The notes under the pieces: generated by a model
Databases searched by the model: none
What the model was told of the DNA's origin: nothing
Seen by the model: the letters and a program-made list of their open reading frames with translations, nothing else
In this document: positions 39,767-61,212 of the stretch, piece by piece
Position numbering within the stretch: position 1 is the stretch's first letter
Layout: each line of letters starts with the position of its first letter
NCBI GenBank assembly: GCA_016871755.1
Contig: VHCJ01000004.1
Span: 124,001-188,000, forward strand
Reading direction: 5' to 3'
Length of the DNA: 64,000 nt
Source of the DNA: Verrucomicrobiota bacterium
GTDB taxonomy: Bacteria > Verrucomicrobiota > Verrucomicrobiia > Opitutales > Opitutaceae
Program-made: the position numbers and the translations under genes

Positions 39767-40762
39767 ATGATGTCCGATGTCCCCCCGAGCAATGAGGCGG
39801 CTCCGAACCGAGCGGAAGTGCCACCCAAGCCGTTCTCCCCCGAGGACGAGGTTGCCATGCGGGAGTCGCTCAAACGTTGCTCGGCGGCCACGGTCGAGGC
39901 AGCGGTGCAGTTCCGCCGGACCCGGGATGTGGCCCTGCTGCCGACCATTGTCCTGGGCGTGATCGAACGCTTCGTGGAGTTGGAGCTGCGTCCGAAGCTG
40001 CGCGAGGGCGACGACGATCTCCGCTTGGTCGAAGACCTCGGAGTCGACTCGCTCACGATGATGGAGACCGTGATGCTCGTGGAGGAGGTGCTGCAGATGC
40101 AGACCAATAACGACGAATTGCGCAACCTGCGCACCGTCGGCGACGTGAAGACCTTCATTGATTGCAAGGTGCGTGGCCTGCCCCTGCCGAAACCAACGCG
40201 GTTCCTTCCGGTCGAGCAGGTGGCGGCGGTGATGCCGATCCAGCCGCCGTTCCTCTTCATCAACGAGGCGCAGATCGGATCGGCCGGCGCGCAGGGCAAG
40301 TACAAGATCACCGGTCAGGAATTTTTCCTCCAGGGGCATTTCAAGGACAACCCGGTCCTCCCGGCCTCGATCATGCTCGAGGCGCTGGGGCAACTCGCGG
40401 TGCTGTTTCTCCTTGAGGGCGCGCACGCGGAGCCCGGGAAGCGGGTCGATCCGTCGCGCATCCTATTCACGAGTTGTGAAGGCGTCCGGTGCCATCGCAT
40501 CTGCCGTCCGGGCGACACGCTCACGCTCAGCGTGCGACCGCGGCGGGTGAAGATGCCGCTGGCGACGTTCGAAGGCTCCATCCGCGTCGGTCAGGACAAG
40601 GCCGCGGTCGCGGAGGAGGTCACGCTCACGTTTGCCTACGCCGACGGGGCGACCCAGACGGTCGGTGCGAGAGACAACGCGGCCGCCGGCGCGCCGTCAC
40701 ACCCCCGCGACGCCGCCGGAGGGCAGCCTCCGCTGGCGGCGGCAGCGGTCTCGGCGTCCTAG
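39767..40762 (+). CDS. Fused acyl carrier protein and FabZ-like 3-hydroxyacyl dehydratase
   Basis: A 331-residue two-domain protein. Residues about 55-135 are an acyl carrier domain with the phosphopantetheine serine S95 in EDLGVDSLTMMETVM. Residues about 150-300 are a hotdog-fold dehydratase of the FabA/FabZ type: catalytic His191 in FFLQGHFKDNPVLPAS and Glu205 in IMLEALGQLA match the family's H and E/D. The 25-residue C-terminal tail is low-complexity. Tethering the carrier to the dehydratase suggests a dedicated fatty-acyl or polyene pathway separate from housekeeping FAS. Two adjacent ATGs (39767 and 39770) are possible. The ketosynthase follows after 111 bp. Confidence 0.82.
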   Translation: MMSDVPPSNEAAPNRAEVPPKPFSPEDEVAMRESLKRCSAATVEAAVQFRRTRDVALLPTIVLGVIERFVELELRPKLREGDDDLRLVEDLGVDSLTMMETVMLVEEVLQMQTNNDELRNLRTVGDVKTFIDCKVRGLPLPKPTRFLPVEQVAAVMPIQPPFLFINEAQIGSAGAQGKYKITGQEFFLQGHFKDNPVLPASIMLEALGQLAVLFLLEGAHAEPGKRVDPSRILFTSCEGVRCHRICRPGDTLTLSVRPRRVKMPLATFEGSIRVGQDKAAVAEEVTLTFAYADGATQTVGARDNAAAGAPSHPRDAAGGQPPLAAAAVSAS

Positions 40763-40873
40763 GTTCTGGTGGGGCGGGCGGGGATCTCGGTTCCCGCGTT
40801 GACCCCGCAGGACGCAGCATCAGGATTGGGGTTTTCCCGGCACCTGATTCCGCCCGGTGCCGTTCTGACAACC

Positions 40874-42133
40874 ATGGCTCGGATTTTCGTCACCGGCGTC
40901 GGCTTCATTACCAGCATCGGCAACGACCGCGAGGCGGTCTCCCGCAGTCTGCGCGAGTTGCGGCACGGCATGGTGCGCTACCCGCCGTTCGACAAGCCGG
41001 AGGTCCCGGTCAAGGTCGCGGCCCCGGTGCGCGGCTTCGGGGTGGACTCCCCGGATCCCGAGGACTGGACCTACCCGTCGGAGTACCGACTGAAACGGGA
41101 GGTTCTGCGGAGCCTCTGTCCGAACGCGCTCTTTGCTTATTGCGCGATGCAGCAGGCGATCCGCGATGCGCGCCTCGGGGATACCGACATCTCCAATCAG
41201 GACACCGGGCTCTATGCCGCGTCGGGCGGGTCGCCCACGATCCTGGGCCGGTTGCTGAATCAAATGTACCAGCAGGGAGTGATGCGGTGTCCGCCGCTGG
41301 GCATCGTGGCCTCGATCGCCGGCACGGTGCAGTTCAACCTCGTCGCTCACTTCAAGATCAAGGGAGTGTCCTGCGGCTTGTCGTCGGCGTGTGCATCATC
41401 CTCCCACGCCCTCGGGTTCGCTTTCGACGATCTGGTTCTCGGACGACAGAAGCGGATGTTCGTGGTGGGCGCGGAGGACGGCAACGTGGATACGATTCTC
41501 CCGTTCGCGGGCATGCGGGCGCTGTCGCTCAATCCGGATCCGGACACGGCGTCCCGGCCCTTCGACGTGGCGCGGGATGGCTTCGTGGGAACCGGGGGGG
41601 CGACGGTCCTCGTGCTGGAGACGGAAGCGGAGGTGGAGCGCCGCGGCGTCGTGCCCTACTGCGAGGTCGCGGGATGGGGGCAGGCGTCGGACGGGTACAA
41701 CGTCGCCATCTCCCATCCGGAGGGGCACGGTCTGCGCCTCGCGATCGAGCGGTCGCTGCGGGCGGCGGGCATCGCATCGACGGAGGTGGATTACGTGAAC
41801 GCGCATGCCACGTCGACGCCGATCGGGGATATCTCGGAGGTGCGGGCGCTGCGCGCGGTTTTCGGCAGCGACATCGGCCGGGTGGCGGTGAGTTCGACGA
41901 AGGCGCTGACGGGTCACGGACTCTCCCTTGCGGGCGCGATGGAGACCGGATTCTGCGCCCTCGCGCTGCGGGAGGGATTCCTCCCCGGCTCCGCGCACCT
42001 CTCGAACCCGGATCCGGCGTGTGCCGGCATGAACATCCCCCGTCAGACCGTCGCCGCTGAACCGCGGGTCGTGTTGAACAACAGCAGCGGATTCGGCGGT
42101 GCCAACGTCTGTCTCGTGCTCCGTCGTGCCTAG
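40874..42133 (+). CDS. Beta-ketoacyl-ACP synthase (KAS I/II type)
   Basis: A 419-residue condensing enzyme that extends acyl chains on an acyl carrier protein. The catalytic triad is complete: Cys173 in GLSSACASSSHAL, His311 in VNAHATSTPIGD and His348 in TKALTGHGLSLAG. The C-terminal NNSSGFGGANVCLV is the usual glycine-rich end. It differs from housekeeping FabF in insertions around 105-150 (TGLYAASGGSPTILGRLLNQMYQ), pointing to a specialised chain. No chain-length-factor partner is adjacent. ATG 40874 is the standard MARIFVTGVGF start. The downstream SDR overlaps its 3' end. Confidence 0.9.
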   Translation: MARIFVTGVGFITSIGNDREAVSRSLRELRHGMVRYPPFDKPEVPVKVAAPVRGFGVDSPDPEDWTYPSEYRLKREVLRSLCPNALFAYCAMQQAIRDARLGDTDISNQDTGLYAASGGSPTILGRLLNQMYQQGVMRCPPLGIVASIAGTVQFNLVAHFKIKGVSCGLSSACASSSHALGFAFDDLVLGRQKRMFVVGAEDGNVDTILPFAGMRALSLNPDPDTASRPFDVARDGFVGTGGATVLVLETEAEVERRGVVPYCEVAGWGQASDGYNVAISHPEGHGLRLAIERSLRAAGIASTEVDYVNAHATSTPIGDISEVRALRAVFGSDIGRVAVSSTKALTGHGLSLAGAMETGFCALALREGFLPGSAHLSNPDPACAGMNIPRQTVAAEPRVVLNNSSGFGGANVCLVLRRA

Positions 42134-42983
42134 CCTCACACCCGTTGCGGAGACCCGGAGCGCGCTGGAACGGCGCACGGCGTGGGTGTCGGGCGCGAGC
42201 AGCGGCCTCGGCCACGCCGTCGTGGCGCTTCTGCTCGCGGAGGGCTACGACGTCTGGGGCACCGCGCGCGACCTCGGCCGGCTGTCCAGTTGGTCCGGCG
42301 ATCCACGCTTCCATGCGGTCGCGCTCGACCTGCGGGATCCGGCGGGGGCGGAGGCCGCTTTCCTCGCCGCGCAGCGCGCCGCCGGCGGGGCGTTCACGGT
42401 CTGCGTGCAGAACGCCGGCTTCGGCGAATTCGGCGCATTCGCGGCGGCGGATGCGGGCGTCTGGGAGGACGCCGTGGCCGCCCTGTTGCTCAGCACGGCC
42501 CGCCTCAGCCGACTCGCGGTGCAGGGGTTCGCCACGCGTCCGCCCGGCCGCGGCACCTTGGTGCACGTCTCCTCGCTGGCGGTGGAATTTCCCTTGCCGC
42601 TGATGAGCGGCTACAACGTGGCGAAGGCCGGCCTCTCGGCTCTGAGCGAGAGTTTGATCGTTGAATGCCGCGGGACGGCCGTCACGGTGATTGATTTCCG
42701 GCCCGGCGACACCCGCACCCCGTTCAACCAAGCCATGCGAGCCACCGCTGCCCTCGACCACGCGCGCGAACAACGGATTTGGGCACGGCTGGAGCGCAAC
42801 CTTGCGGAGGGACCGTCGCCGGAGACCGTGGCCCATGATCTCATCCGCGCGCTGCGGCGCGGCCGCTCCGGCGTGGTGCGAAGCGGTTCCTTCTTCCAGG
42901 CGCGGCTCGGGCCGCTCCTCGCCCGCCTCGCCCCGGGCGGGCTGCGCCGTTGGGTGCTCGCGCAGTATTTCGGGGTCCATTGA
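42126..42983 (+). CDS. Short-chain dehydrogenase/reductase, candidate 3-ketoacyl reductase
   Basis: A 285-residue classical SDR. NAD(P)-binding GASSGLGHAV, the NAGFGEFGAF segment, Ser in VSSLAVEFPLPL and the YNVAKAG Tyr-Lys pair give an intact active site. With ACP, dehydratase and ketosynthase upstream, the missing step of an elongation cycle is 3-keto reduction, so this is the likely ketoreductase; a sugar or lipid SDR is also possible. I chose GTG 42126 (8-nt overlap with the ketosynthase) because an ATG at 42099 would overlap by 35 nt. The stop at 42983 overlaps the next start. Confidence 0.78.
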   Translation: MPSLTPVAETRSALERRTAWVSGASSGLGHAVVALLLAEGYDVWGTARDLGRLSSWSGDPRFHAVALDLRDPAGAEAAFLAAQRAAGGAFTVCVQNAGFGEFGAFAAADAGVWEDAVAALLLSTARLSRLAVQGFATRPPGRGTLVHVSSLAVEFPLPLMSGYNVAKAGLSALSESLIVECRGTAVTVIDFRPGDTRTPFNQAMRATAALDHAREQRIWARLERNLAEGPSPETVAHDLIRALRRGRSGVVRSGSFFQARLGPLLARLAPGGLRRWVLAQYFGVH

Positions 42984-44215
42984 GCGTGGAGCAGGTCCGC
43001 ATCCTCGTCCTCACCTCGAGCACCGGCGGTGGTCACGACGCCCGCGCCGAGGCCTTCGCGGATTGGTGCTTCCAACTCTACCGCCACGGCGTGGACGTCC
43101 GCATCGAACAGATGCTCGAGCGCTCCTCCGTCGTGAACCGCGGCGGCGTGCATCTCTACAACTGGATCCAGCGCCGGGTGCCCTTCCTGCACGGGATCTA
43201 CTACGCGATCGTGGAGCTGCTGGCCGTGCTCAACCGCCGCACGGTCTCCCTCGGCCGCGGGTATTACGTCGACGCGCTCCGCGAGTACCGCCCGCACCTC
43301 ATTCTCAGCGTGCACGACTGCCTGAACCGCGGGTACTTTCCGCTCGCGCGGCGCATCCTCGCGCCTGACCGCGTACGTTGCGTGACGTACTGCGGCGAGT
43401 TCTCCGGCGGCTGGGGCTATTCCGTCAATTGGATCGAGCCGACGGTTGACCGCTATTACTCGCGCACGCCGACCGCCCGCGACTTCGCGGTGCGCAAGGG
43501 CATTCCGGCGGACCGCTGCCTCGTGCGGGGTCACCTGATGGCGCCCCGCGCGCACCGCGAGGTGTTCGACGCCGCCGGTGTCGCGCGCTTCCGTGAGCAG
43601 GATCTTGGACTGAAGGCGGACCGCCTCACGGTCTTCCTCGCGACTGGCGGCAACGGCGCGAACAACCACTTCGCCCTGCTGCCCGCGCTGATCAAGCACT
43701 CCGACCGTGTGCAGGCGATCGTGATCTGCGGGCGCGACAAGGACACCCACCACGCGCTGGTGCGGTGGCGGGCGCAGCATCCGGAGCTCCGTCTCTACAT
43801 CGAGGGCTACTCCGACCAGGTCCACCGCCTCATGCAGGCGAGCGACGTGATCGTCACTCGCGGCGGCACCACTACCTGCGCGAAGGCGCTGCACTTCCGG
43901 TGCCCGATCATCTTCAATGCCTTCGGTGGCATCATGCCGCAGGAGCGCCTGACGTGGAAGTTCTTCCGTAACGGGGCGCAGTCGGCCAAGATCGAGCAGG
44001 CGGGGGACTTCGCCGACTTGCTGTCGGGCTGGGTCCGCGCGCCGGAGCGTTTCGACGCCTACCGTCGGGCTTTCCTAAGCCTGCGCTACGCGGAGGACCC
44101 CACGCTGTTGATCGACGAGATCGTGCAACTGGCGGCGGACGCCGCGAACCTGTCGCTGCGACGCTGGCCCTTTGAAGCGCTCGAGCCTGGCCCCGCTGGA
44201 GGATCGAGACCGTGA
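42980..44215 (+). CDS. MGDG-synthase/MurG-like glycosyltransferase
   Basis: An approximately 411-residue GT-B enzyme. The N terminus VRILVLTSSTGGGHDARAEAFADW is the monogalactosyldiacylglycerol-synthase type signature (SxGGGH), and the C-terminal half has the GT28 donor-binding features (LTVFLATGGNGANNH, QASDVIVTRGGTTTCAKAL, PIIFNAFGGIMPQE). Such enzymes transfer sugar from a nucleotide donor to a lipid acceptor at the inner membrane. Here that suggests glycosylation of the lipid made by the preceding acyl enzymes, which is inference. The start is TTG 42980 (overlapping the SDR stop) or GTG 42986. A GTGA overlap joins it to the next gene. Confidence 0.85.
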   Translation: MSVEQVRILVLTSSTGGGHDARAEAFADWCFQLYRHGVDVRIEQMLERSSVVNRGGVHLYNWIQRRVPFLHGIYYAIVELLAVLNRRTVSLGRGYYVDALREYRPHLILSVHDCLNRGYFPLARRILAPDRVRCVTYCGEFSGGWGYSVNWIEPTVDRYYSRTPTARDFAVRKGIPADRCLVRGHLMAPRAHREVFDAAGVARFREQDLGLKADRLTVFLATGGNGANNHFALLPALIKHSDRVQAIVICGRDKDTHHALVRWRAQHPELRLYIEGYSDQVHRLMQASDVIVTRGGTTTCAKALHFRCPIIFNAFGGIMPQERLTWKFFRNGAQSAKIEQAGDFADLLSGWVRAPERFDAYRRAFLSLRYAEDPTLLIDEIVQLAADAANLSLRRWPFEALEPGPAGGSRP

Positions 44216-45429
44216 GCGCGTCCTCGCCGACCGTGGCCTACCTGTTCACCACGTTCCCGAAGGTCTCGGAGACGTTTCTGCAGCGGGAGGTGCGGGCGAT
44301 GCTCGGGCAGGGAGTCGACGTGCGGTTGTTTTCGCTCTGGGGCGGCGGCGGGACGTTCGCCGGCGTGCCGGTGGCGACGTTTTCCAAATGGCGGCTGCTG
44401 GGACTCCTCGGGATCATCCCGTGGGCGGCGGTGGTCCACCCGCGCGTATTCTGGCGCCTCGTGGCGGGCGTGTTGACGCGGCGAAGCGGTTCCGCGTTGA
44501 CCCTCTTGGAGAACTTTCTCGGTGCGGGCTTTGCGGGGGTCCACTACCGCGGGTTCCGCCGGGCCGGAGTCCAGTGGATCCACGCGGTGTGGGGCGGCGG
44601 TCCGGCGACCGCAGCGTGGATTCTGCATCGCCTCAACGGCCATCCCTACAGCGTCGGGGTGCACGCCTACGACTCTATTCAGGACGGCGGCGATCCGTGG
44701 CTGCCGGAGAAAGTGGCGGCGGCGCGATTCGTCCACACCTCGACGGCCATGGCGGCGACGGAACTGCAGCGCCGCGGGCTGGGGCGGGGGAAGGTGCTCG
44801 TGATTCGGAGGGGGCTCGACGCTTTTCCCGCGCTGCGTCCGCTCCGCGATCGGCGCGAGCCCCTTCGCATCCTCTGTGTGGCCCGACTCGTGGAAAAAAA
44901 GGGTCTCCTGCGGCAGGTCGCCGTCTACCGTCACCTCAAAGGGCAATCCTTCTCCTTCACCGTGCGAATCGTCGGTGAGGGGCCGTTGCGAGCGGCACTG
45001 GACCGAAAGATCGACGAAGATGGCCTTCGTGATCGCGTGCAGTTGCTCGGGCAGCTTCCTTCCTCCGAGGTCTGGCGCCAACTGGAGTGGGCGGACGTGC
45101 TGGTGCACACCGGCGTGGTTGCGGCCAGCGGCGATCGCGACGGCCTGCCGAACGTCATCCCGGAGGCGATGAGTGCGGGCGTACTCGTGGTCACCACGCC
45201 GGAGGCCGGCCCGCAGGAGGCGGTGACCGAGGGACGGTCCGGCTTCGTGGCGCCGCTGGACGAGCCGGCGCGCTGGGAGGCGGCGTTGCGTCGCATCGTC
45301 ACGGACGATGCGCTCGCGGAGGCCGTGCGCCGCGAAGCCCGGCGATGGACGGAGGAAAACTACGACGCGCAGCGCAACGCGGCGGTGCTGGCCGCGGCCT
45401 TCCGGTCGGGCGGGAGGCAGGAGCCATGA
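44212..45429 (+). CDS. GT4-family glycosyltransferase
   Basis: A 405-residue GT-B glycosyltransferase. TVAYLFTTFPKVSETFLQREVRAML is the opening of the GT4 colanic-acid/exopolysaccharide type. The donor domain holds LRILCVARLVEKKGL, VRIVGEGPLR, VQLLGQLPSSEVW, and DGLPNVIPEAMSAGVLVVTTPEAGPQEAV with the conserved E of the EX7E motif. GTG 44212 overlaps the upstream stop by 4 nt and the next gene's ATG overlaps its own stop, so these form a tight operon. Sugar specificity is unknown. Confidence 0.92.
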   Translation: MSASSPTVAYLFTTFPKVSETFLQREVRAMLGQGVDVRLFSLWGGGGTFAGVPVATFSKWRLLGLLGIIPWAAVVHPRVFWRLVAGVLTRRSGSALTLLENFLGAGFAGVHYRGFRRAGVQWIHAVWGGGPATAAWILHRLNGHPYSVGVHAYDSIQDGGDPWLPEKVAAARFVHTSTAMAATELQRRGLGRGKVLVIRRGLDAFPALRPLRDRREPLRILCVARLVEKKGLLRQVAVYRHLKGQSFSFTVRIVGEGPLRAALDRKIDEDGLRDRVQLLGQLPSSEVWRQLEWADVLVHTGVVAASGDRDGLPNVIPEAMSAGVLVVTTPEAGPQEAVTEGRSGFVAPLDEPARWEAALRRIVTDDALAEAVRREARRWTEENYDAQRNAAVLAAAFRSGGRQEP

Positions 45430-46472
45430 TCTTCCTCGATGTCACCCAGGCGTCGCGGTCGCCGCATTTCTCCGGACTGAATCGCGTTTCCGCGTGTTTG
45501 CGTTCGGCGGGCTCGGACGTCGTCACACCCATCCGCTGGCGGGAGTGGTCCGGGGAACTCGGTCCGGGGGACTGTTTCCTGACCAGCGAGCTCTTCTCGG
45601 ACGAGGAGCGTCCGGGGATCCGCACTTGGCTCGCGCGCCGGGGCGGTCGCGCCGTCGCCGTCTTTCACGATGCGATTCCGCTGCGGCAGCCGCAAATCGC
45701 GTGGGCTCGCAGCGTCGGGCGTCACGCGGCGTACGTGAAACTCCTGGCGGAGTTCGACGACGTGCTGGCGGTGTCGGCGGACAGCGCGCGGGACCTCGAT
45801 GAACTCTGGCGCTGGCAGGGCGTGGTCCCGCGGGCGAGGATCGGCGTGATCACCCTCGGAGCCGACGGATTGGGTCAGCCGCGCGGGGTTCCGCCCGCGA
45901 CGATGCCGCCACGCAACGTGGTCGCCGTCGGCATCCTTGAGCCCCGCAAGAACCAGACCGTCCTGCTTGATGCCGCGGAGCGGCTTTGGCGTCGCGGTCG
46001 GCTGTTTCGGATCGTGGTCGTGGGCCGGGTAAACCCTCACTTCGGGGGGCCGATCGCCCGGCGCGTGGCGGCGCTGGGCCGACGTTATCCCGGCCTCGTG
46101 GTGCATGAGGCGCGTCTCGACGATGTGCGTCTTGCGGAGCGGCTCGATGGTGCTCGATGCACCGCGTTTCCCAGTCTCGCGGAAGGGTGCGGGCTGCCTG
46201 TCCTTGAGTCCCTGTGGGCCGGACGACCCTGTCTCTGCGGGGACGTCGCTGCGATCCGGGAGAGCGCGGTCGGGGGCGGTTGCGAGGTGCTGCTCCCGCA
46301 TGACGTGGCGGCGTGGGAGCAGGCGCTTGAGCGCATGCTCTTTGATGACGCGCATTGGCGCATGCGGATGCGCGAGGCGACGGAGCGGCGGCTACCGCGT
46401 TGGAGCGGTACGATCGCGTCCGTGCTGCAGGCGTGCCGCGGGCACCGGGTGGCCGCGGGCACGGGTGTCTAG
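45426..46472 (+). CDS. GT4-family glycosyltransferase (paralogue of 47709-48911)
   Basis: A 348-residue GT-B enzyme. N-terminal MIFLDVTQASRSPHFSGLNRVSACL and FHDAIPLRQPQIA, then VVAVGILEPRKNQTVLLDAAERL and CTAFPSLAEGCGLPVLESLWAGRPCLCG in the donor domain. The same pattern (VDLSHTS..TGVQRV, FHDAIALRLPEL, LSVGSIEGRKNH, FTVYPSLMEGFGLPVLESVG) occurs in the protein at 47709-48911 on the other strand, so the two are paralogues. The ATG overlaps the previous stop (ATGA). The 3' end shares CTAG with the convergent alpha-oxoamine synthase gene. Confidence 0.9.
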   Translation: MIFLDVTQASRSPHFSGLNRVSACLRSAGSDVVTPIRWREWSGELGPGDCFLTSELFSDEERPGIRTWLARRGGRAVAVFHDAIPLRQPQIAWARSVGRHAAYVKLLAEFDDVLAVSADSARDLDELWRWQGVVPRARIGVITLGADGLGQPRGVPPATMPPRNVVAVGILEPRKNQTVLLDAAERLWRRGRLFRIVVVGRVNPHFGGPIARRVAALGRRYPGLVVHEARLDDVRLAERLDGARCTAFPSLAEGCGLPVLESLWAGRPCLCGDVAAIRESAVGGGCEVLLPHDVAAWEQALERMLFDDAHWRMRMREATERRLPRWSGTIASVLQACRGHRVAAGTGV

Positions 46473-47665
46473 AGCGACTTGACCGCGTGGGCCATCGCCT
46501 CGCCGATGCGATCGATTTCCTCGTCTGTGTGCATCGCTGACACTGCGGTGCGGATGAGGTCCTTGCCCGGTGGCACGGCGGGAGCGATGGACATCACCGT
46601 GAAGATGCCGCGATCCAGCAGGGCGCGCCAGAACCGATAGGCGTTCTCCCGGGAGCCGAGGACGATCGGAACCGCCGGGGTCTGGGTCTCCCACGTGTCG
46701 AGTCCCAGTGACTTCAAGATCGCGAGGTAGCGCCGGGTGTTGCGCCAGAGTCGTTCCAAGTGCTCGGGCTCCGACTGCATCAACTGCAGCGCGGCGAGGG
46801 CCGCACCGGCCTGGCTCGGGGCGATCGCGGCCGAGAAGATCGTCTGCTTCGAATGCGTGCGCAGGTACTCGATGGTTTCCCGCGAGCCGGCGACGAAGCC
46901 GCCCGTGCTCGCCAGCGATTTCGACAGGCTGCCGCAGAGCACGTCGATCTTGTCGCTCAGGCCGAAATGATCCGCCGTACCCCGGCCCTGCCGCCCGAGC
47001 ACGCCGAATCCGTGCGCGTCGTCGAGCACCGTGAAGCAACCATACTCCCCGGCGATCTCCGTGAGCTCCGGGAGGCGGGCGATGTGTCCCTCCATCGAAT
47101 ACACTCCCTCGATGATGAGCAGCTTGGCCGCGTCGGCGCCGGCAGTCTGGAGCAACTGGCGCAGGTCGTCCGGGTTGTTGTGGGAAAATCGCTCGACGGT
47201 GGCGTGCGACAGGCGGATGCCATCCCAGAGGCAGGAGTGCAGGTTTTTGTCCGCGAGGACGAGGTCGCCCTTCTGCGCAAAGCCGGCGACGCTGGCCATC
47301 ACGGAGAGGTAGCCGGCGGAGTGCACGTGACAGGCCTCGCGCCCGAGAAACCCGGCCAGCGCGTCCTCAAGCTCAAGGTGGTAGGCGCGGGAGCCGTTGG
47401 ACGGCCGTGCACCGGTCGTGCTGGTGCCCCAGCGCCGGACTGCGGCCTGCGCCGCCTCGATCACCTTGGGGTGGAAGGAGAACCCGAGGTAATCATTGCT
47501 CGAGAGCATGATCATCTCTTTCCCGTCCAACCTCACGCGCGTCCCCGCCTGCTCCTCCATGGCGTGGTAGTAGGGGGCGTACTTCAGGCGCATCTTCGTC
47601 GCATAGTCAATGCGACACCGCTCCAGCAGCGGCTTCGAAGCCCGGTTGAAAAAGGGGAACGCCAT
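46469..47665 (-). CDS. PLP-dependent alpha-oxoamine synthase
   Basis: A 398-residue fold-I PLP enzyme of the KBL/AONS/serine palmitoyltransferase group, which condenses an acyl thioester with an amino acid and releases CO2. LSSNDYLGFSFHP and GTSTTGARPSNGSRAYHLELE are the glycine-acceptor region, DDAHGFGVLGRQGRG binds PLP, and Schiff-base Lys249 lies in CGSLSKSLASTGG. No other biotin or threonine-catabolism gene is nearby, while an ACP, ketosynthase and lipid glycosyltransferase are, so a long-chain base or sphingolipid-type product is an attractive inference. BioF remains possible. ATG 47665 gives a normal start; it is last of a - strand operon. Confidence 0.85.
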   Translation of the reverse strand: MAFPFFNRASKPLLERCRIDYATKMRLKYAPYYHAMEEQAGTRVRLDGKEMIMLSSNDYLGFSFHPKVIEAAQAAVRRWGTSTTGARPSNGSRAYHLELEDALAGFLGREACHVHSAGYLSVMASVAGFAQKGDLVLADKNLHSCLWDGIRLSHATVERFSHNNPDDLRQLLQTAGADAAKLLIIEGVYSMEGHIARLPELTEIAGEYGCFTVLDDAHGFGVLGRQGRGTADHFGLSDKIDVLCGSLSKSLASTGGFVAGSRETIEYLRTHSKQTIFSAAIAPSQAGAALAALQLMQSEPEHLERLWRNTRRYLAILKSLGLDTWETQTPAVPIVLGSRENAYRFWRALLDRGIFTVMSIAPAVPPGKDLIRTAVSAMHTDEEIDRIGEAMAHAVKSL

Positions 47666-47708
47666 GAGACGGCAACGCTGCCCCGACCGCCGGCGGAGGC
47701 AACTGGTT

Positions 47709-48911
47709 TCAGCGCGGGCCTCCCGGCCGCCCGCGAAGCTCGCGCATCCAGTCGAGCAATTCGGTGGCGTGTGCGCTCCATCCGCGAGCCGGACGAGCAA
47801 GGGCCGCCTCCGCGAGCGCCTGTCGCCGGCCGGGCTGGGTCAGGAGGGTGCGCAAGGCGTCCGCCATAGAAGGCGCATCGACGTGTTCCAGCGTGAAGCA
47901 TCCGCCGCCGCGGGCGGCCTCGCCCAGCGCGCCACGTCCCGAGCATACGCACGGTTTCCCGTACCCCACGCTTTCGAGCACAGGCAGGCCGAAGCCTTCC
48001 ATCAGCGAGGGATAAACCGTGAACGCGCACTCATGGTAGGCCGCATTCAGCGCCCGCTCATCGAGGGGACCGTCATAGCGGAGCGCCCGCCCCCGTTGCT
48101 GCAGGCGACGAATTTCCGTGAGCACCGTTTTGCCAGTCTCCGCCTGCGCGAACCCGACGAGCCGGAGCTCGAACGCCACCCCCTCCGCCCAAAGGACCTC
48201 GGCCGCCTCGAGGAGCGACCGGTGATTCTTGCGACCCTCGATGCTCCCCACGGAGAGGACCACGGGGACCCGCGTCGTCCGGGCAAGGACACGGTCGCGC
48301 GCGGGCGGATCCGCCGCCAGGGGAATCGTCGCGACCGGGGGCGGAGTCGGGACGCGGAGCCAGCGCCACCAGTCGACCAGCGCATCGTGCGAGTCGCGGG
48401 ACACGGCGGCGACGCCGTCGAACGCGAGCAGTTGTTGAAGGTAGAGCGGGAAGCGCGCCACCGTGTTCCGCGGCGAGAGCTCCGGCAGACGAAGGGCGAT
48501 CGCGTCGTGGAACAGGGCCACCTTGGGCCCCTTCACCGCGGACAGCAAGCGAGGCAGAGCCTGTCCGACCGCCGCGGAAAAGATCTCAGGCACGATCAGC
48601 TGGGCGTCCGTCGGCAGCGCGGGCGGGGCCGCGCCCCGCAGGCGCTCGGACCAGCCGCGGAGACGAAGGCCGAGCGGCCACGATGCACCGCGGGCGCGTC
48701 CGGGATCGTCGTTGGCCAGCGCCGTCGTCTCACGCTCCCCGAGGACCCGCCAGCGTCGACCGAAGGGATCCCATGTGATCGCCTGCGTTCGCTCCGGTCC
48801 GGTCAGCCCCGACACCGCGCGGGTCAGGGAGCGACAGACCCGCTGCACGCCGGTCCGGGCCCGCGTGTGGCTGGTGTGGCTGAGGTCAACAAGCGTCAAC
48901 GGGCTTTCCAC
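47709..48911 (-). CDS. GT4-family glycosyltransferase (paralogue of 45426-46472)
   Basis: A 400-residue GT-B enzyme with N-terminal LTLVDLSHTSHTRARTGVQRVCRSL and donor domain LSVGSIEGRKNHRSLLEAAEVLW and YPSLMEGFGLPVLESVGYGKPCVC. The likely start is GTG 48911 (VESPLTLVDL): it overlaps the upstream gene stop by 16 nt, and further upstream the frame runs through that gene's coding region with Arg/Gly-rich, non-homologous sequence. It is 43 bp before the alpha-oxoamine synthase start. The paralogy with 45426-46472 suggests they add similar sugars. Confidence 0.87.
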   Translation of the reverse strand: MESPLTLVDLSHTSHTRARTGVQRVCRSLTRAVSGLTGPERTQAITWDPFGRRWRVLGERETTALANDDPGRARGASWPLGLRLRGWSERLRGAAPPALPTDAQLIVPEIFSAAVGQALPRLLSAVKGPKVALFHDAIALRLPELSPRNTVARFPLYLQQLLAFDGVAAVSRDSHDALVDWWRWLRVPTPPPVATIPLAADPPARDRVLARTTRVPVVLSVGSIEGRKNHRSLLEAAEVLWAEGVAFELRLVGFAQAETGKTVLTEIRRLQQRGRALRYDGPLDERALNAAYHECAFTVYPSLMEGFGLPVLESVGYGKPCVCSGRGALGEAARGGGCFTLEHVDAPSMADALRTLLTQPGRRQALAEAALARPARGWSAHATELLDWMRELRGRPGGPR

Positions 48912-50518
48912 GGAATCTTCTCCTGCAGTGCCAGCGTCTCCAAGCGGCGCCGGTATAGCGTGCCGACGGCGAGGGGCGAGAAGCGTTCCTCGATCCGGCG
49001 CCGAGCCGCCGCTCCGATCTGTTCCCGCAGCGCGTGGTCCTCCACCACGCGACACATCTGGCGCGCGGCAGCGGCGAGGTCGGGTTCCGCCCACCGCTGG
49101 CCGCGGCGGTAGGGGCCGTGATCTTCCGTGAGTTCCACCTCCACCGCCGGCACGGGAAGGGCGGTGGACGCATCCGCGAATTCCGTGGTGGCGGACCAGT
49201 CCGTCGTGATGACCGGCTTGCCCAGATACATGGCCTCGGCGACCGCCAGACCGAAACCCTCGGCGCGATGGAGGCTGACGTAGCAGTCGCACGCCGCCTG
49301 CAGCGCGGTCAGGTCCGTGCGATCCAAGGCCCGTGCGATGAGGTGTGAGGCGGGCAGGGTGGTCAGGCGGTCGCGGAGTTGCTCCAGCTCGTCGGGATTA
49401 CCCTCGGCGGAGTGGACCTTGACCACCAGCCCGGCACCACGGTCGGCGAGGCCGCTCATGCGGAACGCCTCAATCGCCGCCTGCGGGTTCTTGCGGGCCG
49501 AATAGCTGTTCAGGTCGTAGAGGACGAGGAACAGGAATCCGTTGAGCGGCAGTCCCAGTCGGGAGCGGAGCGTGGCGGTGGGATCCTCTGGACGCGCGAA
49601 TGCGACCGCGTGGGGCATGGTCAGCACGGGCAGGGGCGACTTGGCCGCGATCGCGCGCCGGGCGAACTCGCTGGGGCACCAGATCTCATCGAAGCAGCCG
49701 AAAGCGGGCAGCCACGCATCGGGGAACTCCGGCAACTCCCATGCCCAATATCCGATCAGGTAGCGTCCCGAACGGAAGGCCCTGCCGTGGTGGTGCTCAA
49801 GGTCGCGGCTCGCGGGAGGATCCACGTGGACGACCGTCACCGGGTGTTCGGGATCAGTCCGGAGACGGGAGGCAAGGGTCTGGTCGTGGCGGGGATTCTT
49901 GCACGGCAGACGCAGGTCGATGGGCGTCACGGCAAGGCCGGCCGCATCGGCCGCTCGCACCATGCACCGCGCGCTCTCGCCGATGCCGAGGTGCGCGGTG
50001 ACGAAGCCCGCGACGTTCAAGCCGAAAGCCAATCGCTCGCGGACGAAGGAGCCATCGAGGCGGAGATCGCCCGGCGTGAAGTCGTAGAGGGTGCGCCCGG
50101 CGCCGTCCGCGATGCGGAGGAGACGGAGGCGTCGGTTGCGTTCCTGCCGTCGGTACGGCTGGAGGGCGGCAAGTCCGGTGACCCGGCCCAACCACGCGAG
50201 GGCATTCGGCCGAGTCACCCCGAGCAGAGTGAGGGACAGTTCCACCCCGTCCGCATGGTCGCGGGAGAGGGGGAGGGAGAGCGCCCAAGGTCCTGCGTTC
50301 CGGATCGCCAGCCGTCGGGCGTGCCCGGCGGCGCGGATGCGCAGGCCGAGGGAGGCGGGCGAGCCGTCACCGGCAAGGAGAGTGCCCTCGAGTTGCAGCG
50401 AGTCGACGCCGCGGAGCGGCGGGATGCGGATCGTGGCCGCTTCCCGCACCCACGCGCCGGGGCCCCCGTCAAAGAAGAGACCGGCCGAGCGGCGAGAGGG
50501 GCGGGCGGGGAGAAACAT
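48896..50518 (-). CDS. Glycosyltransferase with N-terminal beta-rich domain
   Basis: A 540-residue protein. Residues 1-110 are beta-rich and hydrophobic-alternating (ATIRIPPLRG, SLQLEGTLLAG, LGLRIRAAG), probably a carbohydrate- or membrane-proximal module. From about residue 165 it is a GT4-type GT-B enzyme: FGLNVAGFVTAHLGIGESARCMVRAADAAG, RYLIGYWAWELPEFPDAW, CPSEFARRAI, LVLYDLNSYSARKNPQAAIEAFRMSG, VSLHRAEGFGLAVAEAMYLGKPVITT. This matches a group that often sits in LPS/exopolysaccharide loci. I chose ATG 50518; upstream in-frame sequence to 50701 is Arg-rich. The 3' end overlaps the next gene. Confidence 0.85.
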   Translation of the reverse strand: MFLPARPSRRSAGLFFDGGPGAWVREAATIRIPPLRGVDSLQLEGTLLAGDGSPASLGLRIRAAGHARRLAIRNAGPWALSLPLSRDHADGVELSLTLLGVTRPNALAWLGRVTGLAALQPYRRQERNRRLRLLRIADGAGRTLYDFTPGDLRLDGSFVRERLAFGLNVAGFVTAHLGIGESARCMVRAADAAGLAVTPIDLRLPCKNPRHDQTLASRLRTDPEHPVTVVHVDPPASRDLEHHHGRAFRSGRYLIGYWAWELPEFPDAWLPAFGCFDEIWCPSEFARRAIAAKSPLPVLTMPHAVAFARPEDPTATLRSRLGLPLNGFLFLVLYDLNSYSARKNPQAAIEAFRMSGLADRGAGLVVKVHSAEGNPDELEQLRDRLTTLPASHLIARALDRTDLTALQAACDCYVSLHRAEGFGLAVAEAMYLGKPVITTDWSATTEFADASTALPVPAVEVELTEDHGPYRRGQRWAEPDLAAAARQMCRVVEDHALREQIGAAARRRIEERFSPLAVGTLYRRRLETLALQEKIPWKAR

Positions 50519-50755
50519 GGTCCGGGAAATCGCGACGGGAAACTCGCCGACGCTGGTCGCCCGGTCGCCGCGTGGCAAAGCTTTCCGCCGATCGGAGCCC
50601 TCAGGCGAGGCCGTCCGAGTTTCCACCGCCGCCCTTCGCGCACGCGCGCCCGACCCCGGCGCATGTCGCCGCGGTCGACTGCCCATACGGGCGACCCGCA
50701 CCCAAGGGCGCGGGCTCGGGCGGACGCGTCCCCGGAGGCGAATGCGCCCCCGGCA

Positions 50756-51763
50756 TCAGGGTGTGGACGGCGCGCGCTTCGCCCGACCTCGCCACACCAG
50801 CAGCGTGAGGCCGCCGACGAGGCTGCAGGCGAGGGTCGTGACCCACACAGCGGTCGCAAGGAGCAGAGCCGGCTCGCGGGTGGCCCCGGAGGCGGAGACG
50901 AGGCCCAGCGCTCCCAGCGTGGCGAGAAGCGTGCCCTCGCGGACGCCGTGCCCGCCGATGCTGATCGGAAGGACGGTCACAACATAGGCCGCCGCAGCCG
51001 CCACGCTGCACTCCAGGAACGGCAGGGGGAGTCCGACTGCCTTGGCGAGCAGCGAGATTGACACGAAGTCGACCCCCCAGATCACCACGCTCCAAAAGAG
51101 GGCCAGACCATGGCGGAGCGGCTGCGTGAGGGTGCGTTCGCGGAGCATCGCGAGGATGGCGATGCGATCCCGACCGACGCGGCGCTGCAGAGGCTCGGGC
51201 CAGCGGTGAGCCGGCCAGGCGAGTCCAATGGACAGCGGGACGGCGAGGGCGGCGATGCCAAGGAGTGCAAGCGCGGAGAGCGACTCGACGCCGCGGTCCC
51301 GAGCCGGGTCCGGTCCAAGCGCCACGAGGAAACCCGCACAGAGCCCGAACAGGACGAGCAAACCCATGACGCGATCCATCGCGAGGCTGCCGAGCGCGGC
51401 GGCCTTGTGGTGGGGAAAGTCGCGAACCGCGTAGAACGCACGCGCCGCATCGCCTCCGACCCCGCCGATGAGCAGCGAATTGTAGAAGCCGCCGATCCAC
51501 GAGACCGCTTGGGTCCAACCGTGGCGGGCCTCCAGCCCCTGCGCGCGAAGCAAGAGGTGCCAGCGCAGTCCGTGGAGTGGATAGGCAATGGCGGCGAAGA
51601 GCACGCCCGCGATCGCCAGGTCCCAACGCACCGGGGCCGGCAGGCGGGAGAGTTCACGCCAGTCAATCAGCACAAGGAAGAGCACCACCAGACCCGCGGA
51701 AAAGACGGTGCGCAGGGCGCGACCCAGCGGGCCGTTGAGGAAAGTGAGCAAGGGACGGAACAC
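50756..51763 (-). CDS. Flippase-like integral membrane protein (LPG_synthase_TM/UPF0104)
   Basis: A 335-residue membrane protein with about 8 helices. Family signatures are YPLHGLRWHLLLRAQ, the SLLIGGVGGDAARAFYAVR region (conserved GGxGGDxxRA), ALGSLAMDRVMGLLVLF and LPISIGGHGVREGTLL. The family includes AglD-type and the transmembrane half of MprF, which flip or handle lipid-linked substrates. It opens the - strand glycosyltransferase operon, 237 bp upstream of the next start, and faces the + strand methyltransferase. A role in lipid export across the inner membrane is inference. Confidence 0.85.
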   Translation of the reverse strand: MFRPLLTFLNGPLGRALRTVFSAGLVVLFLVLIDWRELSRLPAPVRWDLAIAGVLFAAIAYPLHGLRWHLLLRAQGLEARHGWTQAVSWIGGFYNSLLIGGVGGDAARAFYAVRDFPHHKAAALGSLAMDRVMGLLVLFGLCAGFLVALGPDPARDRGVESLSALALLGIAALAVPLSIGLAWPAHRWPEPLQRRVGRDRIAILAMLRERTLTQPLRHGLALFWSVVIWGVDFVSISLLAKAVGLPLPFLECSVAAAAAYVVTVLPISIGGHGVREGTLLATLGALGLVSASGATREPALLLATAVWVTTLACSLVGGLTLLVWRGRAKRAPSTP

Positions 51764-52883: not shown

Positions 52884-55088
52884 ATGACTTTTTTCGCGGC
52901 CGCGTTTGCGCTCGTCCTCAGCGTGCTCTTGTGGGGCCTCGGATTCGCTTGGCTGGCGACGCCGCGGCGCTGGCGGATGCTTTGGCCCTTGTTCATCGCT
53001 CCCTGCGGCGTGGCCCTGCAGATGGGCGTGGTTTGGGTCGGCGTCCACACGCCACTGGCGGGAACCGACGCCTATGCGCCGGCGGCGTGGTCCGTGCCGC
53101 TGCTCCTCCTCGCGCTGGCGGTGTGGCGCGGCGGGCGCGCGGGCTGGACGTCACTCCGGCGGTACTCCGGTGTCGCGGCCGTGATGCTGGCCACGCTGCT
53201 GCTTCTGGCGGACGCGATGTCGTCGGCGTCACGACGATTGACCTCCTTCTCGCTGGGAAGCTGCGATGCGGCCGACTATGCGGCGGGTGCGCGGGTGCTG
53301 AAGGAGTTCGCCGCCAGTGATCGGGGCGGATTCCTCGGGCTGACCGAGGTGGTGCGAATCATGTCGGTCGACAACTTTGTCGACTATTGGATCCGGCTCA
53401 ATCACTTCGCTCCCTCCGCCCTCGCGGCGTTGAGCGGATCGTTACTCGGCTACGAGCCGTACCAGATCATTTCCCTGCTCGGCGGCGTGCTCCTGGTGCT
53501 CGGCGTCCCGATGGCATTCCTGATGGCGCGATCGGCTCTCCGCATGCGTCAGGCCGGCGCGCTCGCCGTCGCCGGGGTGTACGGCTTCTCTCCGCTTTTG
53601 TGGTATGCCGTCGCGCACGTCGCGCTGAGTCAACTGGTGGCGGCGATCGCGCTCGCGCTCATCACCTGGAGCGGCGTGATGTTGTGGCGAGGGACGGTCG
53701 GTTGGAGGCGCGCGGTGATGTTCGCACCCCTTTTGGCGACCGGCTACGCTCTGGTGCTCGGGGCCTACAACTTCATGATCGTGTTCTGCCTCCTGCCGGT
53801 GGCGGCCTATGCGGTCGGTTGGACGATCTGGTCCGGGCGCTATGCGCGCATCCTGCGCTGGTTTGCCGCGATGGCGGCGCCGCTCGCGCTCGCGGCCGCA
53901 CTCATGCCCGAGCGCGTCGCCGGTCTCGTTGAGCGCTTCCTGCTGTTGCGGCAGTACGACTTTGGCTGGAGGATCCCGGCACTCTCGCCGGAAGGCTGGA
54001 TGGGCATGGTGGGCGGAGTGCTCCTGCAGGGCTATGCGCCGTGGGTCCGCTGGACCCTTTCCGTGTTCGTGGTGCTGGCTTTCCTTCTCGCGGTGGTGGC
54101 GGCGTTTCGGCGTCGGCGGGATACGGGCTTCCTCGCGCTCTGCCTCACGGTCCCGGTTCTCGCCGGTTACGTGATCCTGCTGCTGCAGGCGCGGAGCCAG
54201 GGAACCAACGCCAGCTACGATGCCTACAAGCTCCTCGCGGCCTTTTACCCCGTAGTGCTGCCCGGCCTCGGGCTCGCGTTGGCGACGCTCACGCCAAAGG
54301 TCTCGCTTCGGTCGGGGCTTCTCGCCGTCTTCGCTCTGGGTCTCCTCGGTGCGAACGTCGTCGGCTCTTGGCGCTTTGCCGAGCGACTCCGCAATCCTCC
54401 CTACCTCGTGGATCGCGGCCTCGCGGCCCTTCAGTTGGTGGAGCAGCGGCCTGAGGTCACCTCGATCAATCTTCGCATCAATGACTTCTGGATGCGGTTC
54501 TGGGCCCACTCGTTTCTCCTCCGCAAACCTCACTACTTTCCCTCCCACACCTACGAAGCGCGGTTGAACACGGAATTGCGCGGAGAGTGGGACCTGATCG
54601 GTGGGCTGATCACCATCACCCTTCCGCCGGGCGAAGTTCCCGTGCCTTCCGAACGGCCGTTTTCCCTCATCCCGCAGCAAAGCGACTTCGCCATCCGGGC
54701 GCGGATCGGCGAGGGCTGGTACGAGCGGGAGCAGATTCCGCGCGCCAACACCCGCTGGCGCTGGACCACGGGAGACGCGGAACTCGTGATCGATAATCTA
54801 CAATCCCGGCCGCTCGACATCGGCTTCCGGTTCCAAGCTCGCAGCCTCGTTTCGCGTGAACTCGAAGTGTGGGTCGACGGCCGGCGGCGTCGGACGGCGC
54901 AAATCGGCACCGACTTGGCCTGGATCGAGGTCCCCTCGGTGCGGATCGCGCCCGGAACGACCACCGTGGAACTGCGTTCCCCCACGGCGCCGACCTTCGC
55001 CGGACCGAACGACCGGCGCCCGCTCGGCTTCGCCGCCTATGGGATCGAGGTGAAAGTCTTGCGTGACCCCGATCCGGGGGGCGAATAA
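52884..55088 (+). CDS. Large polytopic membrane protein, possible GT-C-like glycosyltransferase
   Basis: A 734-residue inner-membrane protein. Hydrophobic helices run from residue 1 to about 465 (for example FALVLSVLLWGLGFAWLA, ALAVAGVYGFSPLLWYAVAHVAL, FVVLALAF-like stretches), probably 12 or so, with a loop near 120-170 (SCDAADYAAGARVLKEFAASDRGG) holding acidic residues and a C-terminal beta-rich domain of about 240 residues (WVDGRRRRTAQIGTDLAWIEVPSVRI). The layout is that of bacterial GT-C or O-antigen-type membrane proteins, but I recognise no signature motif. ATG 52884 is the first start of the hydrophobic N terminus. TAATG joins it to the epimerase gene. Confidence 0.65.
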   Translation: MTFFAAAFALVLSVLLWGLGFAWLATPRRWRMLWPLFIAPCGVALQMGVVWVGVHTPLAGTDAYAPAAWSVPLLLLALAVWRGGRAGWTSLRRYSGVAAVMLATLLLLADAMSSASRRLTSFSLGSCDAADYAAGARVLKEFAASDRGGFLGLTEVVRIMSVDNFVDYWIRLNHFAPSALAALSGSLLGYEPYQIISLLGGVLLVLGVPMAFLMARSALRMRQAGALAVAGVYGFSPLLWYAVAHVALSQLVAAIALALITWSGVMLWRGTVGWRRAVMFAPLLATGYALVLGAYNFMIVFCLLPVAAYAVGWTIWSGRYARILRWFAAMAAPLALAAALMPERVAGLVERFLLLRQYDFGWRIPALSPEGWMGMVGGVLLQGYAPWVRWTLSVFVVLAFLLAVVAAFRRRRDTGFLALCLTVPVLAGYVILLLQARSQGTNASYDAYKLLAAFYPVVLPGLGLALATLTPKVSLRSGLLAVFALGLLGANVVGSWRFAERLRNPPYLVDRGLAALQLVEQRPEVTSINLRINDFWMRFWAHSFLLRKPHYFPSHTYEARLNTELRGEWDLIGGLITITLPPGEVPVPSERPFSLIPQQSDFAIRARIGEGWYEREQIPRANTRWRWTTGDAELVIDNLQSRPLDIGFRFQARSLVSRELEVWVDGRRRRTAQIGTDLAWIEVPSVRIAPGTTTVELRSPTAPTFAGPNDRRPLGFAAYGIEVKVLRDPDPGGE

Positions 55089-59670: not shown

Positions 59671-59854
59671 CCCGGGTTGCGGGTCGGCGCGAATCAGCGC
59701 ATCGTTTTGCCCGTTGTGCGTCGCGAAGGCGTTGGCGCAGTGCCACCCTCGCTCCTTTCGCTGGGTTCCTCCGTCCGCGGAGAAGGTCGCCGCGGCAGCG
59801 CCACGCTCCTCCCACGGCGAGCGCGGCCGTCCTGGGGTCCAAACGGTTCAAACC

Positions 59855-60478
59855 TCAGGCGAGTGCGCTCTTTATCAACTGCTCGGTGGTGGCTCCCGCC
59901 CCAAGGGCGAGGGCCGCGCGCCGGACGGCTTCGTCGGCGTCCGCCGCCTTGTAGCCCAGCGCCACGAGGGCCTTGACGGCGTCGGCGCTGCGGCCTGAGC
60001 CAGAAGGAGGAGCGGCGTCGCGGCCGACGGCGGCATCTCCGGCGGGAGAAGAGATTCCCGTGCCGGTCGGGCCGGGGCCAATCTTGCCGCGCAGTTCGAC
60101 GATGAGGCGCTCCGCCGTCTTCTTGCCGATCCCCGGACTCTTCGCGAGCAGCGCGAGGTCTCCGGAGCGGATCGCGCTCTCCAGTGAGGCGACGGACAGC
60201 TTGCTCATGATCGACGTCGCCAGCTTGGGCCCCACGCCGCTGACATGATCGATGAGCAAGCGGAAGAAGTCCCGGTCCTCGAGCGTCGCAAATCCGTAGA
60301 GCGTCTGCGCGTCTTCGCGGTAAACGACATGGGTGTGGAGCTTGACGGTGGCTCCGATGGCCGGAAGGCGCTCGGCAGTCGTCACCGGAATGTGGACCTC
60401 GTAGCCGAGTCCGTTCAACTCGATGACCGCCGAGAGGGGCGTGGCGGCGGCCAGGACACCCTGGATCGACGTGATCAT
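59855..60478 (-). CDS. ruvA: Holliday junction branch migration protein RuvA
   Basis: A 207-residue DNA-binding subunit of RuvAB. The N-terminal OB fold begins MITSIQGVLAAATPLSAVIELNGLGYEVHIP, followed by VYREDAQTLYGFATLEDRDFFRLLI; the two helix-hairpin-helix motifs are HVSGVGPKLATSIMS and KSPGIGKKTAERLIVEL; the C-terminal domain III is DAVKALVALGYKAADADEAVRRA. ATG 60478 overlaps dapB by 4 nt. The linker before domain III is long and Gly/Pro-rich. ruvB is not in the window. Confidence 0.96.
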   Translation of the reverse strand: MITSIQGVLAAATPLSAVIELNGLGYEVHIPVTTAERLPAIGATVKLHTHVVYREDAQTLYGFATLEDRDFFRLLIDHVSGVGPKLATSIMSKLSVASLESAIRSGDLALLAKSPGIGKKTAERLIVELRGKIGPGPTGTGISSPAGDAAVGRDAAPPSGSGRSADAVKALVALGYKAADADEAVRRAALALGAGATTEQLIKSALA

Positions 60479-61212
60479 GACGACCGCAGGCCGAGGACAT
60501 CCTGCATGTCGTGCAGACCGGCCGGCCGGTCGGAGATCCACTCGGCCGCGCGGATCGCTCCACGCGCGAAGATGCTGCGGTCAGACGCCTTGTGCGTGAG
60601 TTCCAACCGCTCGCCCACGCCTGCGAAGAGCACGGTGTGGTCTCCGGCCACGTCTCCGCCGCGGAGGGCATGCACGCCAACCTCCCCTGCGCTGCGTTCG
60701 CCCACAATGCCCGACCGACCATGGCGCAGCGCGGACTCGTCGAGCCGACGCTCCTCCAAGATGATCTCAAGCAGGCGCGCGGCGGTCCCCGACGGAGCGT
60801 CCTTCTTGAACCGATGGTGCATCTCCACCACCTCGCAGTCGTAGTCCGAGCCCAGCACCGCAGCGGCCCGCTGCGTCAGGGCGAACAGCAGATTCACCCC
60901 CACGGAATAGTTTCCAGCCCAGACGCACGGTGCTTGGGAGGCCAGCGCGGCGAGCTCGCGCTTCTCCGCTGCGGAATGCCCGGTGGTGCCGATCACCAGT
61001 GGTCGGCGATGACGTACGGCCAACTCCAGCACCGCCCGGGTCGTCTGATGAAACGAGAAATCGATCACCACGTCGCCGGCGGCAAACGCGTCCGAAAGCG
61101 TGTCGCCGGCATCGACGCGGGCTGCGATCCGGTGACCGGCCGCCTCGGCGGCCGACGCGATGGCAAGTCCCATCCGCCCCTTGGCGCCGACGATGCTGAG
61201 GGAGAGGCCCAT
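60475..61212 (-). CDS. dapB: 4-hydroxy-tetrahydrodipicolinate reductase
   Basis: A 245-residue cytoplasmic NAD(P)H-dependent enzyme of lysine and diaminopimelate synthesis. The cofactor site is SIVGAKGRMGLAIASAA, VVIDFSFHQTT and VIGTTGHSAAE follow, and the catalytic His/Lys region is EVVEMHHRFKKDAPSGTA. Length matches DapB. Start ATG 61212 lies 4 bp after the dapA stop. It is translationally coupled to ruvA at its 3' end. Confidence 0.96.
   Translation of the reverse strand: MGLSLSIVGAKGRMGLAIASAAEAAGHRIAARVDAGDTLSDAFAAGDVVIDFSFHQTTRAVLELAVRHRRPLVIGTTGHSAAEKRELAALASQAPCVWAGNYSVGVNLLFALTQRAAAVLGSDYDCEVVEMHHRFKKDAPSGTAARLLEIILEERRLDESALRHGRSGIVGERSAGEVGVHALRGGDVAGDHTVLFAGVGERLELTHKASDRSIFARGAIRAAEWISDRPAGLHDMQDVLGLRSS

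Follow-up and report, generated by a model that had tools for sequence, protein, structure and literature searches.

Results

Gene content and layout of the locus

The window analyzed here is a stretch of 64,000 nucleotides (contig VHCJ01000004.1, positions 124,001 to 188,000 of the forward strand) from the genome of a Verrucomicrobiota bacterium (assembly GCA_016871755.1). The source genome (G000) is 3.67 Mb in size, 97.4% complete and of the Opitutaceae type, and the nearest named loci to the window belong to Opitutaceae metagenome genomes. We studied the genes between positions 39767 and 51763, for which an original prediction, made from the DNA letters and their open reading frames, had proposed a dedicated lipid or glycolipid pathway encoded by two convergent operons. 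The operons do meet as predicted, the genes for GT4b and the alpha-oxoamine synthase overlapping stop to stop by 4 bp at 46469-46472. Pfam and NCBIfam assignments also bear out the ketosynthase, the glycosyltransferase resembling monogalactosyldiacylglycerol (MGDG) synthase, the two GT4 glycosyltransferases and the synthase, each in the operon predicted for it.

The plus-strand run begins with a protein in which an acyl carrier protein (ACP) is joined to a FabA/FabZ-like hotdog domain (ACP-hotdog; 39767-40762), identified by the Pfam PP-binding and FabA-like domains and characterized by NCBIfam, PDB alignment, residue counts and a structural model. It is followed by a FabB/FabF-like ketosynthase (KS; 40874-42133; N- and C-terminal ketoacyl-synt domains in Pfam), a short-chain dehydrogenase (SDR; 42099-42983; Pfam adh_short) and a glycosyltransferase of family GT28 that resembles the synthases of MGDG and diglucosyldiacylglycerol (42986-44215; Pfam Glyco_tran_28_C, NCBIfam and synteny). 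The run ends with GT4a (44212-45429), which is EpsE/WcaL-like and a conserved partner by Pfam, NCBIfam and synteny, and GT4b (45426-46472; Pfam and synteny). The gaps between these genes are, in order, 111, -35, 2, -4 and -4 bp.

Encoded on the minus strand are the alpha-oxoamine synthase (AOS; 46469-47665; Pfam Aminotran_1_2, NCBIfam and trees), GT4c (47709-48911), the usual neighbor of AOS in Opitutaceae, and GT4d (48896-50518, with an uncertain start that may lie upstream, as far as 50626). These three genes are closely spaced, and a gene for a flippase-like membrane protein (50756-51763; Pfam LPG_synthase_TM and NCBIfam) lies 237 bp upstream of GT4d. The Pfam domain Glycos_transf_1 is present in four window proteins, i.e., GT4a to GT4d. 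That the reading frames are open, are contiguous and recur in relatives tells against a chance arrangement. The module contains only one ketosynthase by Pfam; the aryl polyene pathway has paired ketosynthases. Beyond the module, two long open frames (52884-55088 and 59694-60770) gave no Pfam match at E 0.001; to judge by sequence, the first looks like a large membrane protein.

Conservation of the module among relatives

Among 141 relatives, ACP-hotdog was found in 114 and AOS of the window's clade in 105; 103 genomes carry both and 25 neither (Fisher p 5e-17, uncorrected for kinship). This count used a single hotdog match per genome, the top one listed and of at least 138 bits, and AOS matches of the window's clade only, leaving out weaker and second matches, and some of the 114 genomes have the ACP and the hotdog as separate genes. 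The two genes lie no more than 15 kb apart in 44 of the 103 genomes, convergent as in the window in 43 and on the same strand in 1. They are on different contigs in 52, where the distance can mostly not be judged because the genomes are drafts.

GT28 occurs within 15 kb of ACP-hotdog in 67/78 genomes and is on the same strand every time. Downstream genes were counted at 48 of 80 named loci, the other 32 having less than 9 kb of downstream flank. KS and GT28 were present at all 48, GT4a and GT4b at 39 each, SDR at 34, AOS at 30 and GT4c at 28. The genes are thus co-conserved in relatives, as the original prediction would have it. Its second operon fared less well: the flippase, two glycosyltransferases and AOS are all present in the window, but the flippase and GT4d recur in only 1/40 and 7/40 relative regions, and we rejected them as core genes, treating them as accessory.

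The division between strands seen in the window is not universal. In G041, eight genes (ACP-hotdog, KS, SDR, GT28, GT4a, GT4b, a GT2 glycosyltransferase and AOS) share one strand, and in G220, which belongs to another order of the class, the genes for AOS, ACP-hotdog and KS are consecutive with gaps of less than 20 bp. These rearrangements support co-function across strands and, with the 103/105 co-occurrence, argue for the proposal that both strands contribute to one dedicated lipid pathway. AOS matches at E 1e-120 numbered 23 among 194 genomes sampled across the phylum, and all 23 were in the same class. In the AOS regions from other orders (14 of 15 close matches were covered; G182 was left out), at least one partner gene was present in 9/14, with different arrangements, and L228 has the full set of five partners (ACP-hotdog, KS, SDR, GT28 and GT4a) near AOS.

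Upstream of ACP-hotdog, the relatives' regions L074-L109 often contain a divergent GT4 gene (17 regions) or a 4HBT thioesterase (13 regions); the window has an oligopeptide ABC transporter in their place.

The ACP-hotdog protein

The ACP spans approximately residues 55-136, with the attachment site at Ser95, and the hotdog domain approximately residues 148-290. Ser95 and the catalytic Glu of the hotdog, Glu205, are both present in 109/109 distinct homologues. Ile158 aligns with the catalytic His of solved FabZs. At this position, whose His we take to be the catalytic residue of FabZ, the homologues have Ile in 63 cases, Val in 27, His in 8, Met in 4, Gln in 4, Tyr in 2 and Thr in 1; Gln was found in two proteins from other orders. 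All residue counts refer to distinct sequences only, an earlier count that included repeated genomes having been set aside. The hotdog scored 54 against a cut-off of 155 for TIGR01750, i.e., below the curated threshold. The fusion of an ACP with a FabZ-type dehydratase was therefore correctly predicted as to fold family but not as to active site, and the proposed elongation cycle with a FabZ-type dehydratase does not hold, the His being replaced in 101/109 homologues. For the same reason we doubt that the protein is a functional FabZ.

Since the homologues keep 60-90% identity together with a conserved loss of the base, reuse of the hotdog is more likely than decay, and in this lineage it is probably an acyl-binding or docking domain. 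Inactivity is not proven by the substitution, because an anammox FabZ that also has Gln at this position by alignment forms a trapped complex with ACP, according to the title of PDB entry 7qv0. In the AlphaFold model (mean pLDDT 67; range for five models 51-67) the helical N-terminal half was good and the hotdog poor. A PDB fold search with this model gave no match at E ≤0.001, FabZs and ACPs being topmost. A further residue of the hotdog, Cys246, is invariant (109/109 homologues), and by alignment the solved FabZs have no Cys in that stretch.

Ketosynthase, short-chain dehydrogenase and GT28

The active-site residues of KS (Cys173, His311 and Lys343) were invariant in 103/103 distinct homologues, and the second active-site His is present in the window protein, the one sequence inspected for it. 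Two proteins elsewhere in the genome pass the FabF cut-off, with 614 and 502 bits compared with 311 for the cluster KS, and we therefore rejected the idea that the latter is the housekeeping ketosynthase. Another KS, which scores 311 bits with the FabF model as that of the cluster does, lies about 2.3 kb beyond the end of the window, in a plus-strand row that also encodes a small ACP and a protein resembling FAD-dependent amine oxidases (L144:4267-7317; G000:C4:190267-193317).

The Ser-Tyr-Lys residues of SDR (Ser159, Tyr172 and Lys176) were conserved in 66/66 distinct homologues. The protein had been predicted to be a possible ketoreductase; judged by its sequence, it is not clearly of the FabG type. 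GT28 reaches the Pfam gathering score (PF04101, 29.4 versus 22), and its similarity to MGDG and diglucosyldiacylglycerol synthases is weak (45 bits), below the equivalog cut-offs.

The alpha-oxoamine synthase

When AOS was compared with solved proteins, the best match was Sphingobacterium serine palmitoyltransferase (SPT; 318 bits), followed by Thermus KBL/BioF (274), Sphingomonas SPT (239), cysteate acyltransferase (210) and E. coli BioF (161). In a tree, 54 AOS sequences formed one deep clade (support 100/100) that joined both SPT types (59 sequences, 99/95), and E. coli KBL with Opitutales paralogues formed a separate group (17 sequences, 100/100). The trees were rooted at the midpoint only, and in the first a long-branch flag fell on the join of E. 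coli-type SPTs with the window clade. When the three E. coli-type SPTs were removed, the clade still grouped with Sphingobacterium SPT (98/91), and when BioF was removed, the SPTs and the AOS clade still stood apart from KBL, the Thermus enzyme and the fused AOSs described below (99/95).

The Lys, Asp and His to which we ascribe pyridoxal phosphate (PLP) roles, the last presumably as the stacking His, were invariant in all 54 sequences, two of which are identical. The Asn of the SPT-type NG motif was also present in 54/54; among the reference enzymes only SPTs share it. The HAS motif of SPTs is HSC or HSS in the AOS clade. The bioF model gave 335 bits (cut-off 426), and bioB is absent from G000 and from 9/9 congeners, all 10 of these genomes carrying AOS. 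Taken together, the sequence comparisons place AOS in a clade of its own that groups with SPTs, apart from KBL and BioF; the synthase thus does not fall with BioF, in line with the original prediction.

Ceramide synthases and fused synthases in relatives

With E. coli BL21 YghO as the query, matches to the bacterial ceramide synthase (bCerS) were strong in 9 and weak in 4 of the 141 relatives, and 8 of the 9 genomes with strong matches also carry the window AOS. The bCerS homologue is no more than 100 bp from another AOS in G067, G045, G049, G052 and G082, and about 6 kb from one in G017. As bCerS stands with a different AOS wherever this was checked, the window AOS is an additional enzyme alongside the ceramide AOS. 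Pfam scans of a handful of neighboring genes revealed no acyltransferase able to carry out N-acylation. In another order of the class, a canonical ceramide locus (L245, in G206) has in one row an AOS 41% identical to that of the window and homologues of bCerS and CerR.

Some of the AOS genes next to bCerS encode fusions. In G052 and G045, a single protein of about 1320-1370 residues contains KS, ACP and polyketide synthase (PKS)-type dehydratase domains and a C-terminal AOS, the dehydratase match being weak (under the Pfam cut-off in G052, over it in G045). Full-length matches to it, at 59-60%, are present in G049 and G082. Each of the four Opitutaceae fusion genes (L246-L249) has a YghO homologue no more than 100 bp away, making these candidate polyketide ceramide loci, and an SDR gene adjoins the fusion in G052 and G045. 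Three of the four fusions (those of G052, G045 and G082) were inspected, and all three retain the active-site Cys of KS, the Ser of ACP, the His motif of the dehydratase and the Lys of AOS. Since the fused AOS belongs to a different clade, the fusions support the combination of activities rather than the window AOS itself, and their likeness to the module, judging from the sequences, would be a matter of convergence and not descent.

Discussion

A proposed pathway for a glycosylated sphingoid-type lipid

On balance, we think it somewhat probable that this conserved module makes a glycosylated lipid whose backbone is of the sphingoid (amino-alcohol) type. It is best read as related to the PKS-AOS sphinganine pathway but built of discrete enzymes, and as feeding glycosyltransferases. 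Bacterial sphingoid-base synthesis is itself known, and the single pieces are familiar; what is unfamiliar is how they are combined, with an uncommon carrier fusion and dedicated glycosyltransferases, and that the combination is spread across the class. In the pathway that we propose, the dedicated ACP of ACP-hotdog would receive a fatty acyl chain, and KS would extend it by decarboxylative condensation. AOS would form a 3-oxo long-chain base from the acyl-ACP and an amino acid, for which serine is the likeliest candidate, and SDR would reduce either the ketone of this base or, at an earlier stage, that of 3-oxoacyl-ACP. The first sugar would be attached by GT28 and further sugars by GT4a, GT4b and possibly GT4c, while the hotdog domain, its dehydratase His lost, may serve in acyl binding or docking. 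The amine could be acylated by an unrecognized enzyme or might remain free. We infer the substrates, the amino acid, the order of steps and the product, as the original prediction did for its glycosylated acyl or long-chain-base lipid.

A more far-reaching proposal, which we put forward tentatively as possible rather than probable, is that the module represents a third bacterial route to sphingoid lipids within one class of Verrucomicrobiota. Here a type II KS and carrier would supply an SPT-like synthase and MGDG-type glycosyltransferases would add the head group, with no known ceramide synthase and with the hotdog as an acyl-binding chaperone.

Several observations weigh against the sphingoid glycolipid module. 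ACP-hotdog and AOS are far apart on one contig in 7 of the 51 genomes that have both on the same contig, and at 18/48 named loci AOS is not present within 10 kb. In some farther families (L091, L094-L097 and L099), KS, SDR and GT28 are missing beside the pair and ACP-hotdog, GT4a and AOS alone are still together; these families and the AOS-free loci count against the module as a fixed unit. No partner gene was found in 5/14 AOS regions from other orders, nor in 4/4 further Opitutales regions (L240-L243). In addition, G000 contains no match to bCerS and just one to CerR, a weak alignment over residues 5-102 (98 residues, 44.6 bits) typical of the shared Rossmann fold; AOS is under every NCBIfam cut-off for SPT (NF047600, 381/640 bits; NF047599, 351/500; NF047603, 266/670); and the fused AOSs are outside both the window clade and the SPT group, the bioF model giving their best score.

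Alternatives to the proposed pathway

The separation in those 7 genomes, seen also for ACP-hotdog with KS in G056 and G020, would fit two distinct functions that are merely neighbors, with ACP-hotdog, KS and SDR making an acyl group that the plus-strand glycosyltransferases attach to a glycolipid or surface glycan, and the AOS operon serving another glycan. The opposite strands in the window and the many glycosyltransferases in the surroundings are consistent with this. We nevertheless consider it unlikely, given the near-complete co-occurrence of ACP-hotdog and AOS, the single-strand arrangements in G041 and G220, the regrouping in other orders and the natural KS-ACP-dehydratase-AOS fusion.

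The same GT4-rich surroundings, with a methyltransferase, an epimerase and a GT2 glycosyltransferase downstream of the module, might instead suggest that the genes make a lipid anchor or acyl decoration for an exopolysaccharide or LPS-like glycan, AOS providing an amino-ketone building block. Among relatives, however, the surrounding glycan genes are variable and ACP-hotdog, KS, GT28, GT4a and AOS persist, making this quite improbable.

We give scarcely more credence, and if anything a shade less, to a rearranged form of the canonical bacterial ceramide pathway (SPT, bCerS and CerR). An SPT-type AOS with a dedicated ACP is what proteobacteria have, but the strong bCerS matches are confined to those few relatives, and the locus in G206 keeps its own AOS beside bCerS and CerR, of which the latter is only a weak partial match here. 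Because bCerS is absent from G000 and stands beside other AOSs elsewhere, we rejected membership of that pathway. Finally, that AOS is BioF (for biotin) or KBL (for threonine breakdown) has next to nothing to commend it beyond a shared superfamily and the bioF score, and was rejected on the missed cut-off, the absence of bioB and three trees.

Comparison with known systems

We found no description of the sphingoid glycolipid module in the literature searched, which was mostly outside subscription journals. It offers a concrete conserved gene set, a means of testing for sphingoid glycolipid synthesis in Opitutaceae, and a candidate explanation of how sphingoid lipids could be made by bacteria that lack bCerS. 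SPT-like genes are described from many phyla although sphingolipids are rare among the bacteria studied, and Spt-like proteins are described in 22 Black Sea Verrucomicrobiota genomes, with many of the genes having no bCerS or CerR nearby (PMC11334938).

Some components have counterparts of known structure. GT28 shares its family and fold with MGDG and diglucosyldiacylglycerol synthases (PDB 4wyi and 9wde), at the 45 bits given above. In the anammox-specific FabZ (PDB 7qv0 and 8ayb) the catalytic His is replaced too, by Gln according to the alignment, compared with Ile here; ACP and FabZ are separate there, in an anammox lipid context, whereas they are fused in the window protein.

The proteobacterial gene set aasR-cerR-acpR-spt-bcerS (E. 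coli BL21, L112) has in common with the window an SPT-type AOS and a dedicated ACP, which the proteobacterial SPT is described as using (PMC9386255). In the ceramide model, SPT is placed in the cytoplasm and CerR in the periplasm (PMC11087976, PMC11324152). Unlike that gene set as described, the window's genome lacks a bCerS homologue and has only a weak partial match to CerR, and KS, SDR and GT28 are found instead.

The closest likeness in principle is to SgaAB, the PKS and AOS of Pseudomonas fluorescens MYb115, which deletion is reported to have shown to be required for sphinganine production (PMC12134224). As in that account, chain building by a ketosynthase appears to be coupled to an AOS, rather than an SPT being fed with acyl-CoA, and KS, carrier and AOS occur together here. 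SgaA is described as a monomodular PKS, whereas the window has a discrete KS and ACP-hotdog and no type I PKS polypeptide. In a comparison by description rather than by sequence, the window differs further in that its AOS groups with SPTs and its module includes glycosyltransferases.

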